Positions 4,806 through 42,534 of a DNA stretch of 64,000 bases are shown piece after piece. Within the stretch, counting starts at the first letter, position 1. The number at the start of each line of letters is the position of its first letter. The position numbers and the translations under genes were made by a program. Under the pieces are notes generated by a model. The model worked only from the letters and a program-made list of their open reading frames with translations, was not told where the DNA came from and did not search any database. Origin of the DNA: Coriobacteriaceae bacterium (GTDB lineage Bacteria > Actinomycetota > Coriobacteriia > Coriobacteriales > Coriobacteriaceae); the NCBI GenBank assembly GCA_015062655.1, contig SUUG01000003.1, positions 62,001-126,000 of the forward strand, written 5' to 3'.

Positions 4806-5873
4806 GTGGCGCTGCGCAATCCCGGGGAGGGGCGCCAGGTCGCCTGGCAGCTCGCACTCTCCGCCGCCCTCGCCCTCGCCGCCCTCGCGCTCTCGGGCCC
4901 CGTCGCGGCCCTCTGGGCGCTCGCCGCCGGCCTCGCGGCGAGCCTGATCGCGCTCGCCGCGAGCCGGGCGCGCTACCGGGCCATCGCGCGCATGAGCGAG
5001 CGGCTCGACGCCGTCCTCCATGGCAGCCGGCAGCCCTCGCTTGCCGGGGCTGACGAGGGCGAGCTCGCGATACTCGCCAGCGAGCTCGACAAGGTGGTGA
5101 GCCGGCTCAACCTCACGGCCGAGGCCCTCGAGCGGGAGAGCGCCCGCCTCTCGGACGCGCTCGCCGACATCTCGCATCAGTTGAAGACGCCCCTCACCTC
5201 GCTGTCGCTCATGTGCGAGCTCGTCCGCAAGCGCGTCGTCGCCCGGGGCGGGGCCCTCACGCAGGAGGAGGCCGACGAGATCGCGGCGCGGCTGCGCACG
5301 ATGCAGCGGCTCCAGGAGCGGGTGCAGTGGCTCGTGGCCTCTCTTTTGAAGCTCGCCCGCATCGACGCGGGGGTGGTCAGGTTCGCGCGGGTCCGGGTGG
5401 AGGCCGACCGCGTGATCGAGCGGGCCGCCTCCACGCTCGATGTGGCTTTCGACCTCGCCGGCGTCGAGCTCACACATGTCCCCGCTTCGGGGGCCGGGTT
5501 TTTCGGGGATCCCTCGTGGAGCGCGGAGGCCCTCGCGAACGTGCTCAAGAACTGCATGGAGCACACGCCCTCCGGCGGGCGTGTGCGGGTCTGGGCCACC
5601 GCCGACGCGCTCGCGTGCCGCATCCACGTCCAGGACACGGGCCCCGGCATCGCCGAGGAGGACCTTCCCCATGTGTTCGAGCGGTTCTACCGCGGGCGGC
5701 AGGGGGAGGAGGCCTCTCCAACCGATCCGGCGGGCGTGGGCATCGGGCTCTCGCTGGCCCGGAGCCTCGTCACCGCGCAGGGCGGCACCATCGAGGCGCG
5801 AAACGCCCGCGACGCGTCGGGTCGCGTCACGGGCGCTCGGTTCGATCTGATCTTCTTCCACGCGGTGGTGTGA
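4806..5873 (+). CDS. sensor histidine kinase with short N-terminal membrane anchor
   Basis: Kinase of 355 residues starting with GTG two bases after the regulator stop. Two closely spaced hydrophobic segments (about residues 13-52) leave almost no extracytoplasmic sensor domain. This is the intramembrane-sensing layout seen in kinases that work with ABC exporters. A linker and the dimerisation domain follow, with H124 in ISHQLKTPL. The ATPase domain has an N box (NVLKNCMEHT), G1 (DTGPGI), an F box (VFERFYRG) and G2 (GVGIGLSLA). The tiny sensor region and the neighbouring ABC exporter fit a transporter-coupled signalling module, but the signal is unknown. Confidence 0.9.
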   Translation: MALRNPGEGRQVAWQLALSAALALAALALSGPVAALWALAAGLAASLIALAASRARYRAIARMSERLDAVLHGSRQPSLAGADEGELAILASELDKVVSRLNLTAEALERESARLSDALADISHQLKTPLTSLSLMCELVRKRVVARGGALTQEEADEIAARLRTMQRLQERVQWLVASLLKLARIDAGVVRFARVRVEADRVIERAASTLDVAFDLAGVELTHVPASGAGFFGDPSWSAEALANVLKNCMEHTPSGGRVRVWATADALACRIHVQDTGPGIAEEDLPHVFERFYRGRQGEEASPTDPAGVGIGLSLARSLVTAQGGTIEARNARDASGRVTGARFDLIFFHAVV

Positions 5874-5884
5874 GGGTGCTGCCC

Positions 5885-7519
5885 TCAGGCGTGCACCACC
5901 ACGCAGAGCCCCTCAGAGACGAGGTTGAAGAGCTCGGCCGCCTTCTCGGGCGGCAGGTTGACGCACCCGTGGCTGCCCACGGAGTAGAAGGCCGAGGGGT
6001 TGGAGAAGCTGGACGCGGCCTGCCAGCTCGCATCGTGGAAGCCCACGGCACCGCCGATGAAGGGCATCCAGTACGAGACCGGCGTCCGGTAGATGGGCTC
6101 GCCGGTGGCCGGGTCCTTCTTGCCCACGAGGGTGATGTTTCGCAGGCAGGGGCGCATGCGGTAGATGCCCGTGGGCGTCTGGTTGCCGAGGTTGGGGTTG
6201 CCGGAGATGATCCCCGACTCCCAGATGAGGTTGCCCGAGGCGTCGTAGTAGCGGGCGTGCTGCTCGGCGAGGTCGACGTCGATGTAGGCGCTCCAGTCGC
6301 GCTCGCCGCGGGCGGTGAACACATCGCCGGCGCTCTTCACGGGGACCTCGATCGAGGCGTCCTGGCCGGCGTCGACGGCCGCCCTCACCTGCTCGCCCAG
6401 GGCCGCTGAATCCGCGATCCAGCCCCAGGTGCCGCCCGAGATGGTGACGGCCTTGCCGTCGGGGCGGGTGTAGCTGCGCTCGGTGCCCACGGTGTCCATC
6501 GCGTCGATGGTGAGCTGCTTCAGCCAGGCGTCGAGCTGCCCGGCGTCAAGGGAGGGCGCGAGGTCCTCGCCGAAGACGACCCAGCCCGCGAGCTGGGCGG
6601 GCCCGACACGGCCCACCTCGGTGCCGCCCATCGTGAGGGTGACGGTGGGCGCGATGAGCTTGCTCGCGGCCTCGCAGGCCGCGCGGATCTGATCGGTCGT
6701 GGCGCCGCCCGCGAAGGATTCGAAGTAGGTGCTGTCGACGGTGACGTCCGTCTCGAGCTCGGCCAGCGCGCGCTTGGCGGCGGCGTCGAGCTTGACGGCG
6801 TCGATCTTGACGTTGGCCAGCGCGCGCTCGAAGGTGAAGGCGCCGGCGGCCTCGTCGAAGGCGCTCGGGCCGTCGAAGGTCCCGGTGCGGCCCTCGTTGA
6901 AGGCGGCGACGGCGGCGGAGAGGCTCTCGTCGAAGGCGCGCTCGTCGAAGGCGGCGGGCAGCTGCGCCGGGGCCTCGGCCGCCGCGCTCGAGCCCGAGCC
7001 GGTGGCCTGGGCCTTTGCGGCGCGGGCCTCGGGTGCGCCCATGAGCGAGGAGGCCAGGCGGGCGGGCCAGATGAGCGGGGTGTTGCCGGCAAGCACCGTA
7101 GCGGCGCGGGCGTCGGCGTCGACCACCTCGGCCGCCGAGGAGGGGGTGTAGGTCCAGGAGAAGTCGATGCCGGAGACCGTCAGGGAGTAGGAGGAGACGG
7201 CCCGCTCGATGCGCGCGGCCGCCTCGGCGCGCGGCATGAGCGAGACGTCCGCGCCGGCGATCGAGGTGTTGGGGTAGTAGATGTTCGAGAACGCGATCGC
7301 GCCGCCCGCGTAGGCGGCGAGCAGGAGCCCTCCGGCGACGCCGAGGGCGATGAGGCCGCGGCGGCGACGGGAGGGGCGCGCGTGCGCGCCGGGCGCGGCA
7401 GCGGCCGCCTCGGCTTGCGCCGGGCGGGCGTGGGCCCCGATGGGGCGGACGGGCTGGACGCCCGCGGCGGGGGCGCCGGGGGCGCCGGGGGCGGGATCGG
7501 TGCGGTGGGAAAGCGGCAT
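5885..7519 (-). CDS. L,D-transpeptidase with peptidoglycan-binding repeats (YkuD family)
   Basis: Cell-envelope enzyme of 544 residues predicted to form 3-3 peptidoglycan cross-links or attach proteins to the wall. A proline/alanine-rich cytoplasmic tail (1-50) precedes one transmembrane helix (about 55-77). Two VanW-type peptidoglycan-binding-like domains follow. The C-terminal YkuD domain carries the catalytic motif SHGCVNL with H517 and nucleophile C519. The architecture resembles actinobacterial and clostridial Ldt proteins. The ATG at 7519 has AAGGAG upstream, and a TATAAT lies 40 bases before the start. It ends convergently with the histidine kinase gene, 11 bases away. Its in vivo substrate is inferred from family. 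Confidence 0.92.
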   Translation of the reverse strand: MPLSHRTDPAPGAPGAPAAGVQPVRPIGAHARPAQAEAAAAAPGAHARPSRRRRGLIALGVAGGLLLAAYAGGAIAFSNIYYPNTSIAGADVSLMPRAEAAARIERAVSSYSLTVSGIDFSWTYTPSSAAEVVDADARAATVLAGNTPLIWPARLASSLMGAPEARAAKAQATGSGSSAAAEAPAQLPAAFDERAFDESLSAAVAAFNEGRTGTFDGPSAFDEAAGAFTFERALANVKIDAVKLDAAAKRALAELETDVTVDSTYFESFAGGATTDQIRAACEAASKLIAPTVTLTMGGTEVGRVGPAQLAGWVVFGEDLAPSLDAGQLDAWLKQLTIDAMDTVGTERSYTRPDGKAVTISGGTWGWIADSAALGEQVRAAVDAGQDASIEVPVKSAGDVFTARGERDWSAYIDVDLAEQHARYYDASGNLIWESGIISGNPNLGNQTPTGIYRMRPCLRNITLVGKKDPATGEPIYRTPVSYWMPFIGGAVGFHDASWQAASSFSNPSAFYSVGSHGCVNLPPEKAAELFNLVSEGLCVVVHA

Positions 7520-15315: not shown

Positions 15316-15476
15316 AGTTGCGTTTCTTACCGCTGTGTACATCGGATTGCTAGCACTCGGAGTATGCCCGATGAATCCGCAGGTAGAGTAAGTTGCGTTT
15401 TTGACCCCTGTGCACCCCGATGTGCACAGGGGTCATTTTGTTTGAGAAAAAAGTGCATAGGCGCAAAAAATGCAAC
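15316..15476 (+). repeat. 162-bp nested-palindrome element, copy A (plus orientation)
   Basis: Bounded by AGTTGC and GCAACT. The outer 25 bases at each end are imperfect inverted repeats containing a CGCTRTGYAC-type core. Inside is a perfect 14-bp hairpin, TGACCCCTGTGCAC (15402-15415) and its complement (15422-15435), with a 6-nt loop. A T-rich stretch and GAGAAAAAAGTGCATAG follow. It aligns along its full length with copies B, C and D. Copy B lies 380 bp away in inverted orientation. Confidence 0.88.
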
Positions 15477-15856
15477 TGAGCAATGCGTGCCGGATGGTGC
15501 TGAGGGCGGGGGGGGGTGGGATGCGTCGCCGCCGGCGAGCCGGGCACCGTTCGAGGGGATCGCGGCTGAGCGGTGCGGGTTGAGCGAACCGGCATCGCGG
15601 GCGGGATGAGCCCGCGGGCGCGGCCGGCCGCCATCCGGTTCGTTCACCGCGACGGCCCTCAGCTGCCATCCGCCTCGACGGTTCCGACCACCATCCGCCT
15701 CGATCGCCGCGACGGTTCCCGGCCGCTCTGTGTTTCGCCGTCACCGACGGCCCCGGCAACCCCGCCCGTTCTGAGTGCTCCTGTGTTCTCGGCGACATCG
15801 ACTGCCCCGGTTGTCTGTCTACTTTGTTCGCCCTGCCTCCCGATTCGCCATCTCGC
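15477..15856. other. non-coding spacer between inverted elements A and B
   Basis: 380 bp of GC-rich DNA without a credible gene. It contains loose repeats of a CCATCCGCCTCGA-GACGGTTCC pattern and no recognisable cargo. It may be an eroded insertion between the two elements. Confidence 0.5.
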
Positions 15857-16018
15857 AGTTGGAATTTTTGCGGCTGTGTACGTTTTTCTCGAACAAAGTG
15901 ACGGCTATGTACCTCGCCGTACATAGCCGTCACTTTTGCAGCTGCATCTACCTGAGGAAACACGACTCATACTGGGAGTCCCCCGATAGCAAGGTGCAAA
16001 GCCGTGAGAAATGCAACC
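15857..16018 (-). repeat. 162-bp nested-palindrome element, copy B (minus orientation)
   Basis: Runs from AGTTGG to GCAACC. The central hairpin is a perfect 15-bp stem, GTGACGGCTATGTAC (15898-15912) with its complement (15919-15933), and a 6-nt loop. To the left is the conserved T-rich and GAACAAA segment; to the right is the CTACCTG-containing arm. It is the inverted partner of copy A and matches the orientation of copy D. Confidence 0.88.
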
Positions 16019-16084: not shown

Positions 16085-16310
16085 GGGGCGCGAACCGGCC
16101 GCGCCGCCTCGGCCGCGGAGATCGGGCGCGCGAACCGGCCGCGCCACTCGGGGGCGGGGGCCAGATGGGGCGAACCGGCCTTGCCGCCTCGGCCGCAGGA
16201 ACCGGGGGCGCGAACCACTCGCGCCAGCCCGGCCGTGGGGACCCGGGGTGCGAATCGTCCGTGTTGCTCGGGGGCGGGGGCAAGGCGGGGCGACTCGGCC
16301 CCGCCGTCGC
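16085..16310. repeat. GC-rich tandem repeat with exact 40-bp period
   Basis: The core CGAACCGGCC or a variant recurs at 16091, 16131, 16171, 16211, 16251 and 16291, exactly 40 bp apart, giving about six degenerate units. The period is not a multiple of three and no gene signal is present. It lies between element B and priA. The remaining DNA to 16438 is GC-rich with weaker repetition (CGTGCCGCC, CCCCGCAC) and no gene. Confidence 0.75.
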
Positions 16311-40291: not shown

Positions 40292-40522
40292 ATGGTTCAT
40301 GAAGTCCTTCATCTGCTCTTGACCACCCACCTCTACTTCGCACCCGCCGCGGGTGTCCCTGAGCACATCGTGCAGTCCGATGTGCTGCCGATCGAGGGGG
40401 CGGGATTTGAGACGGATGCCACGGGCCTTCTCGTGGCTTCCGTTCTGCAGATGCTCCTGACCTGCCTGTTTCTTCATGTCCGGAGGCGCTGCAGGGGTCG
40501 GATGGGGGAGTGCGATGCTTGA
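40292..40522 (+). CDS. small hypothetical protein with one C-terminal membrane helix
   Basis: A 76-residue frame with ATG preceded by GAGG. The second half contains a hydrophobic helix (about 45-62, LLVASVLQMLLTCLFLHV) followed by a basic RRRCRGR stretch, so it is probably membrane-inserted. It overlaps the ABC ATPase start by eight bases, suggesting coupled translation. Base composition is less GC-rich than the core genome. The family is not recognised. It could be a decayed permease end or a small partner of the ABC protein. Confidence 0.45.
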   Translation: MVHEVLHLLLTTHLYFAPAAGVPEHIVQSDVLPIEGAGFETDATGLLVASVLQMLLTCLFLHVRRRCRGRMGECDA

Positions 40523-41187
40523 GCTCGAGCGCTTCTCAGTCAAGATAGCCGGCAGGAGCATACTCACGGATGTGAGTTGCTGCTCTGACCCCGGCTCCAT
40601 ATACGGCTTGGTTGCTCCAAACGGGTTTGGCAAGACCACGTTCTTGAAGGGCATCGCAGGGCTTGCCGGGACTGACGTGCAGGGAGGCATCTTTGCGGAC
40701 GGGGTGCGCCGGGATCGCGATGGCGCCTTCAGGCGACTGGTCCATTACGTTTCGGGGGCGCCTCCTCCCTGTACCGCGCGCGGACGGTCCGGGAGCACCT
40801 CAGGGCCGTGAGCTTGTGCTGGGATGCGGCGACGGACCTGGACCGGTTGCGTCCATGTGCAAGATCGATGCGTTTTGCCACAAGCGCGTGCAGTTTTTAT
40901 CGATGGGAATGAAACAGCAGGTCGCGCTTGCGACGGGGTGCCTCACGGGCGCACGGCACCTGCTTTTAGATGAGCCGATGACCGCGTTGGATCCTTTAAA
41001 CCAAAAGATCAATCGGGACACTATCCGGATGCTTGCCGAGAGCGGCCGATGCATCATTATGTCCTCTCATATCCTGAGCAATATCGATGAAATGTGCGAA
41101 AAGATCACCTATATAGATAACGGGAACCTGATTGTCGACAGCAGCTCATGTGGGAGCTCGGACATGTATGCAAAGCTCTATCTGTAG
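40515..41187 (+). pseudogene. ABC transporter ATPase, BcrA/lantibiotic-immunity type, two frameshifts
   Basis: All ATPase motifs survive but in three frames. The first frame (from ATG 40515) has Walker A APNGFGKTT. A middle segment in another frame reads LYRARTVREHLRAVSLCWD. The third frame has the signature LSMGMKQQVALA, Walker B LLLDEPMTALDP and H-loop SSHIL. The breaks lie at a run of five G (40754-40758) and near 40845-40855; each looks like loss of one base. The sequence resembles ATPases of the bacitracin and lantibiotic self-protection type. Two separate frameshifts make decay more likely than a sequencing error. It has lower GC than the neighbouring core genes. Confidence 0.75.
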
Positions 41188-41724: not shown

Positions 41725-41886
41725 AGTTGCGTTTTTGACGGTTGTGTACTTCGCTCTGGCCGCACCCTGAGTAGGGAGATTAAACCACCAGGTCAGGGAG
41801 GTTGCCATTTTGACGGCTTTGCACAGCGGGGTGCAAAGCCGTCAACTTGTTTTGAGAAAAGGTGCATAGCCGCACTTTCTGCAACT
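41725..41886 (+). repeat. 162-bp nested-palindrome element, copy C (plus orientation)
   Basis: AGTTGC (41725) to GCAACT (41886). The central hairpin is a perfect 15-bp stem, TTGACGGCTTTGCAC (41810-41824) with its complement (41831-41845), and a 6-nt loop. It is preceded by CAGGTCAGGGAGGTTGCC and followed by ACTTGTTTTGAGAAAAGGTG. It has the same length and order of parts as copies A, B and D. It lies just after the decayed membrane protein. Confidence 0.88.
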
Positions 41887-42077
41887 GGCGCTGGCGCCAT
41901 GCCAACCGCGGGGCGGCTGTGAGCCGGCGCTCGCTGGCGTTGGGGGCGGCTGTGAGCCCGTGCCCGCTGGTGCTGCGGGCCAGCTGTGGGCCGCCGCGCG
42001 TTGACGCCGCGGACCCCTGTTCGTTGACACTGCGGGCTGGCGCCTGCTGACGTAGCACGCGTGCCGCTAAGATTCCC

Positions 42078-42239
42078 AGTTGCATTTTTTGCGGCAATGC
42101 ACGGATTTCTTAAACAAACGTGCGGCTATGTATAGAGAGGTGCAGAGCCGTCAATTTGGCAACTGCCCTGACCTCGTCTTTTCATTTGGATACTTCGAGT
42201 GCGCCCCGCGCGATGTGCAAAGCCGCCATATTTGCAACT
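42078..42239 (-). repeat. 162-bp nested-palindrome element, copy D (minus orientation)
   Basis: AGTTGC (42078) to GCAACT (42239), inverted relative to copy C. The central hairpin is partly eroded (CGGCTATGTA against TGCAGAGCCG), but the outer ends and the GGCAACTGCCCTGACCTC arm are well kept. The 191-bp spacer to copy C (41887-42077) is GC-rich, with loose GGCTGTGAGCC repeats and no gene. Confidence 0.85.
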
Positions 42240-42534
42240 CAACACGGCGTCCTTCGCCCTCGGCGCTGAAATCCCACGCCGCCGTCGCTTCCGCCTGGCC
42301 CGGCATCCTGTCAGCACCCGGTTCGGCATCCCGGCAGCCCTCGGTCTGGCATCCCGCCGGCTCCCGACCCGCCGCCCCGTCATCCCATCGACCCCGGCCC
42401 GGCGCCGCGGGCCCCGGCCCGGCGCCAAGGCATCCCGTCAGCCCCATACCCCACCGCCCCCGGCCTCGCAACCCCCCCGACCCCCCCCACCCATCTCGGC
42501 GACATCCGTCCCCATGTGGAGGCCTGGGGCGGGC
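42240..42534. other. non-coding GC-rich tract with 23-bp periodicity
   Basis: GGCATCC recurs at 42302, 42325 and 42348, exactly 23 bp apart. CCCCGGCCCGGCGCC is repeated nearby. Long C-runs follow (42475-42490). No credible gene is visible. Like the tract after element B, it lies directly outside the inverted element pair, on the side toward the next gene. Confidence 0.6.

Follow-up and report, generated by a model that had tools for sequence, protein, structure and literature searches.

The 64-kb window analyzed here, that is, the whole stretch of 64,000 nucleotides, contains two copies of a 162-bp intergenic element at 41725–41886 on the plus strand (copy C) and at 42078–42239 on the minus strand (copy D). 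The length, the plus-then-minus order, and the 191-bp gap are exactly those of the original prediction. The spacer (41887–42077) has a GC content of 74% and holds a 33-bp imperfect tandem array at 41908–42012. Copies C and D were scored using R1, a covariance model built from 24 copies of element family 1, and values of 156.6 bits (E = 4.6e-37) and 142.4 bits (E = 1.9e-33) were obtained, respectively. Copy C also scores 109 bits with R3, a cross-family model that aligns the elements of all families and species with few gaps. A second family-1 pair in the window consists of copy A (15316–15477, plus strand) and its mate B (15856–16017, minus strand), with R1 scores of 160.4 and 148.1 bits, respectively. 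GC-rich tandem arrays adjoin the A–B pair at 16085–16300 (TRF score of 276) and the C–D pair at 42300–42356 (TRF score of 72); these arrays are associated with the pairs and lie outside the elements. An ABC transporter ATP-binding gene at 40476–41187 is split across two frames. The earlier description of this gene beside C and D as decaying agrees with the two halves of the ABC_tran domain found on separate open reading frames at 40476–40808 and 40663–41184.

Each element is composed of four bipartite sites of ~24 bp (+ + − −) arranged around a constant CCGCAGGTCA core. Site 1 (+) is followed by the core-bearing stretch and site 2 (+); a short loop separates site 2 from site 3 (−), and a short linker separates site 3 from site 4 (−). 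The bipartite family-1 site reads GTTGC-ATTTCTTA-CGGCTNTGCAC. Copy C follows this layout on the plus strand over 41725–41886. Its outer site 1 (GTTGC ... ACGGTTGTGTAC) was located at 41726–41749 on the plus strand using the alignment and site counts, its core (CCACCAGGTCA) at 41785–41795 on the plus strand using the alignments, and its outer site 4 at 41862–41886 on the minus strand using the alignment. The inner dyad (41810–41845, plus strand) is formed by site 2 (TTGACGGCTTTGCAC) and site 3 (GTGCAAAGCCGTCAA), which have perfect 15-bp arms, and covaries within family 1. The two outer sites, 1 and 4, repeat each other in inverted orientation and so constitute terminal inverted repeats. The element ends are GTTGC...GCAAC in family 1, CATCGG in genome G020, and GTCGA in family 2. 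Site counts indicate that the site sequences are nearly absent from places other than the elements. In nearly all copies measured, whatever the species, the outer and inner sites are 74–75 bp apart on the plus side and 31–32 bp apart on the minus side, or approximately seven and three helical turns, respectively. The fixed spacing and the near absence of insertions and deletions at 36% divergence point to a double-stranded protein–DNA complex.

The genome that contains the window (G000, 2.07 Mb), tentatively taken to be that of a Collinsella-like member of the Coriobacteriia, was searched using R1, and 39 full-length copies of family 1 were detected, each with an E value of ≤3e-27. All 39 are found between genes, and 36 are unchanged in length, with exactly 167 model positions. 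The mean pairwise identity is 64%, and the maximum is 78%. Apart from weak traces at C8:32.1–32.3 kb and an isolated site at C1:71812, fragments are absent. Such a low ceiling on identity and such a scarcity of fragments would be unusual in a mobile family that is active. At C8:31900–32312, a full element is followed by degenerate additional family-1 sites, the sole decayed remnant seen. The pair at C14:51652–52624 has inner parts that resemble family 3 (GTCATGTTTTTC) within a family-1 frame and is perhaps a chimera of the two families.

Close pairs are formed by 26 of the 39 copies, with spacers of about 27–644 bp, and the other 13 copies lie outside such pairs. All 13 close pairs are inverted and none is direct (two-sided binomial p = 2.4e-4). 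The plus–minus (convergent) order of C–D, from which the original prediction argued, recurs in nine of them and is reversed to minus–plus (divergent) in four. The identity between mates is 0.682 versus 0.639 in random matchings, a value reached in none of 20,000 shuffles, and this excess arises almost wholly from the inner hairpin (0.755 versus 0.661). A blastn comparison among the spacers of the 13 pairs gave no similarity, which bears out the claim that no cargo is shared. GC-rich tracts had also been reported directly after each pair. TRF confirms them at both pairs of the window but not as a general rule, since such an array occurs nearby or in the spacer at 7 of the 13 pairs, compared with 7 of 83 element-free intergenic gaps; the arrays are enriched near pairs and are not universal.

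The same prediction took the pair, and not the single element, to be the functional or mobile unit, and a survey of single against paired copies was proposed to decide the matter. In this genome the survey favors the claim: two-thirds of the copies are paired, every pair is inverted, the mates are alike, and the cognate protein genes described below are framed by an inverted pair. It speaks against the claim in the sister species G308, where the 30 copies are nearly all single and the sole close pair is direct. The 13 unpaired copies here, the four close pairs in the reverse order, and a direct pair of family 2 (C18:220255−/220618−, second copy partial) also stand against it. Since the G308 copies are nearly all single, the basic unit is the single element, and pairing is characteristic of the present genome, in which the inverted arrangement is real and non-random. 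A transposon made of a pair with its cargo was rejected for the reasons that the spacers have nothing in common and that, apart from a DUF559-like gene, the genes within wider pairs seem to be ordinary chromosomal ones.

Three element families are present in this genome. Approximate counts of about 17 and about 11 copies were obtained for family 2 (site GGAAGTGCATCGATC) and family 3 (site TGAGGTTGGGAGC), respectively. The site is ACGGCTNTGCAC in family 1, GAGCTATGCATAG in G308, and CCGAGTTGTGAACGC in G020, and sites of the GATATGAACGA and CTTATGAACGA types are found in G307, G014, and G004. A CAGGTMA core is common to all of these site types. Between species and families the site sequences change, all four in concert, and the architecture stays constant. 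R3 gives 74 matches in the present genome, some of which are the same copies detected again on the reverse strand, and 34, 25, 17, 16, and 13 matches in G308, G004, G307, G020, and G014, respectively. A further 25 matches appear in G026, which belongs to another taxonomic family of the same order. Confinement of the family to one species was rejected: models R2 and R3 find it across the genus, R1 is too specific, and G308 lay outside the sample on which that reading had rested. Exact-pattern scans of a collection of genome contigs, from which the present species is possibly absent, returned no match to the element or to peptides of the protein. A phage origin was also discarded, as pattern matches in viral contigs scored near chance with R1 and a search of viral sequences with the protein profile gave no relative.

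Element positions differ strongly between the sister species, apart from a pair that frames the protein gene in both genomes and an element in the same gap and orientation at C18:65950 and at G308 C1:125337. No element is present in the region just upstream of asp23, where copy D sits, in 11 congeners, or at the place orthologous to A–B in G308 and G020. The G308 gap orthologous to A–B (about positions 5450–6000 of the stretch C19:131000–147103) contains a different tandem module with ~105-bp units carrying ATGACGTTTTCG, another species-specific intergenic repeat. Elements of G308 at matching positions have identities of 0.47–0.49, compared with a random-pair mean of 0.495; vertical descent in place was rejected because these elements are no more alike than others.

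The elements could be read as a structured RNA, or as a bidirectional transcription terminator in which transcripts of the upstream gene would end at the inner hairpin and the TTTTGTTT that follows it. Compensatory changes occur in the family-1 consensus fold, mostly within the inner dyad, a T-rich stretch follows the hairpin, and, by our tally, 30 of the 39 copies here and 21 of 29 in G308 lie downstream of a co-oriented gene. However, the outer sites have almost no covariation within family 1. The covariation term is unfavorable for the G308 elements, whose inner arms pair less well; it is therefore unlikely that a role as RNA applies generally. G020, G307, and G004 lack the T tract, and a terminator would leave site 4 and the fixed spacing unexplained. 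Rfam provided no match at curated or at relaxed thresholds, so that an RNA family was rejected, and we regard termination as very improbable.

A wide pair of family-1 elements at C10:44064+ and C10:45725− frames a gene at C10:44693–45673 that encodes a DUF559-like protein of 327 amino acids. The orthologue in G308 is framed by a pair at the same place, and the orthologue in G020 has an element beside it. With R3, elements are detected in both flanks of the gene at three loci of the present genome (C10, C15, and C11) and in three other genomes (G308, G020, and G014); in G004, one flank only has an element. The flanking order is plus–minus at five of these six two-sided loci and minus–plus in G014. 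The three paralogues of the present genome are each linked to a different family: C10 to family 1, C15 to family 2, and C11 to family 3. The sole member of the protein family detected in G026 is framed by that genome's own elements, both in the same orientation. The DUF559-like gene is the only one lying repeatedly between flanking copies, and no known transposase was seen there. Each of the 43 genomes of the genus contains 2–7 members of the protein family. Matching repeats in both flanks (model-free, E < 1e-6) occur at 29 of 80 protein-family loci, 8 of the 29 being near-identical loci of congeners, versus 8 of 214 control genes. This comparison is conservative because several control loci of the present genome were chosen for holding elements, which raises the control rate.

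R3 gave no match at most of the more distant paralogues. In G025 (L226), a DUF559-like gene is framed by long inverted repeats (1041–1250 and 2571–2785 of L226) that are 96% identical over 361 bp, an almost transposon-like arrangement; six members of the protein family are present in that genome, several with flanking repeats of their own (L233 and L237). Such high identity suggests that the copies arose or were converted recently. In a further clade of the protein, from G168 and near relatives (L178–L187 and L223), the gene lies between direct repeats of ~29 bp, with a TTATATGAGCG dyad downstream. These repeats are not recognized by R3, and other element geometries may exist.

A family of miniature inverted-repeat elements (MITEs) mobilized by a DDE or HUH transposase from another locus, with the DUF559-like gene as a passenger near some copies, would account for the inverted terminal sites, the small non-coding body, and the species-specific intergenic dispersal. 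Nevertheless, target-site duplications are absent: 13 copies have a 4-mer repeat, against 10.6 expected from shuffling. The lack of conservation in intergenic DNA left no empty site that could be delimited, and neither a target-site duplication nor an empty site was obtained as proof of pair mobility. High-identity copies are also absent, and a simple MITE was rejected for want of target-site duplications and, for the most part, of fragments. The linkage of protein and element, with matched families, recurs in six genomes and two taxonomic families, which a passenger role would not explain. We consider this alternative quite improbable.

The linked protein was compared with profile libraries. 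Weak matches were obtained to DUF559 (PF04480) for 7 of 10 members, with a best value of 2.4e-4, and to MTES_1575 REase (PF18741) for 5 of 10. The C10 protein on its own matches nothing in Pfam at E ≤ 1. Four residues (D232, E243, H249, and D258) are invariant in ten aligned members and form a C-terminal D..E.G..H..D pattern, like that of the DUF559 and Vsr-like PD-(D/E)XK families. A weak assignment near DUF559 and MTES_1575, both of the PD-(D/E)XK nuclease type, is suggested by these similarities. A search of the PDB with the protein profile found no solved relative. Fast evolution is indicated by the 61% identity between the C10 protein and its orthologue in G308, compared with 88–92% for the products of neighboring genes. 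In the protein tree, the family-1 protein joins that of G308 and the G014 protein joins that of G004, the same pairs that have the most similar sites. The G308 orthologue (C19:44159–45007) has an internal stop, yet about 30 elements are kept in that genome.

The elements might alternatively be long-lived chromosomal binding sites for a DUF559-like DNA-binding factor, serving nucleoid organization, replication, or regulation, and not be mobile at all. The concerted change of the sites would then reflect selection tracking a changing protein. Exact length and helical phasing despite the divergence, the near lack of fragments, the missing target-site duplications, the positions common to G308, and the tendency to follow co-oriented genes are all consistent with such sites. 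The strongly different positions in the sister species and the lack of an element at the places orthologous to A/B and C/D in the relatives examined argue against them, as do the position-matched elements, no more alike than random pairs, and the flanking copies of G025 with their 96% identity. We judge this explanation unlikely, albeit one that deserves real weight.

The reading that we prefer, and think somewhat more likely than not, is that C and D are miniature non-coding elements recognized by a dedicated DUF559-like protein that aids their dispersal, in a manner similar to REPIN/RAYT systems. Each element family would have one fast-evolving protein of the PD-(D/E)XK, Vsr-like type, encoded at C10:44693–45673 for family 1, and different paralogues would serve different families. 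We infer that the protein binds the four bipartite sites of an element, of which two are direct and two inverted and all lie on the same helical face. It may nick or cut at the element and thereby help to copy it into intergenic DNA, the role proposed for RAYT transposases with REPINs, and it would probably copy or maintain the elements. Several results weigh against this reading: the missing target-site duplications and empty sites, the low identity and scarce fragments of family 1, the position-matched G308 elements that resemble each other no more than random pairs do, the internal stop in the G308 gene, the weak DUF559 assignment, and the distant paralogues without an R3 match. The inverted pair was perhaps left by copying beside an existing copy.

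In REPIN/RAYT systems, several types of REP sequence coexist, each associated with a single-copy Y1 protein; three repeat groups, each with its own protein, are found in SBW25 (PMC3116915). The REP palindromes are short and carry GTAG or CGTC tags (PMC3733652). The present elements are likewise dispersed extragenic palindromic sequences with cognate repeats beside the protein gene, and three repeat types with one protein each are found here as in SBW25. Extragenic inverted doublets, which predominate in REPIN/RAYT systems, are seen in family 1 here (13 inverted close pairs among 39 copies) and not in G308, whose copies are nearly all single. A REPIN is a doublet of short palindromes, whereas the present element, ~162 bp long, combines a constant core with four phased bipartite sites. 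The family has tens of copies that are far more diverged than REPINs, and the GTAG and CGTC tags are absent from the element ends. The RAYT protein is a Y1 (HUH) transposase; the linked protein is DUF559-like instead and has no match to Y1 families in a profile search. Without the defining Y1 protein, the elements are classed as REPIN/RAYT-like in logic and not as members.

The ends of Tn7-type transposons contain several phased protein-binding sites each, and a PD-(D/E)XK nuclease, TnsA, acts as a partner. Phased putative protein sites and a PD-(D/E)XK-type partner are features of the present elements as well. The two differ in that all four sites of the present element fit into 162 bp without any cargo and no TnsB-like DDE partner was seen.

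A literature search, which largely missed subscription papers, found no earlier description of this partnership of element and protein, and none of the literature found ties the DUF559 or MTES_1575 families to cognate dispersed repeats. The system may represent a new class of repeat and protein, in which DUF559 PD-(D/E)XK proteins recognize and spread phased four-site elements without a DDE, HUH, tyrosine, or serine recombinase, each paralogue having its own population and site specificity; we put this broader proposal forward tentatively, as plausible but somewhat short of an even chance. DUF559-type proteins are widespread, and to our knowledge their role is largely unknown. The matched dispersed elements give them a candidate function. 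If correct, the partnership would show REPIN/RAYT-like logic in a second and independent case, and the natural series of paralogues and sites would allow a specificity code to be read.
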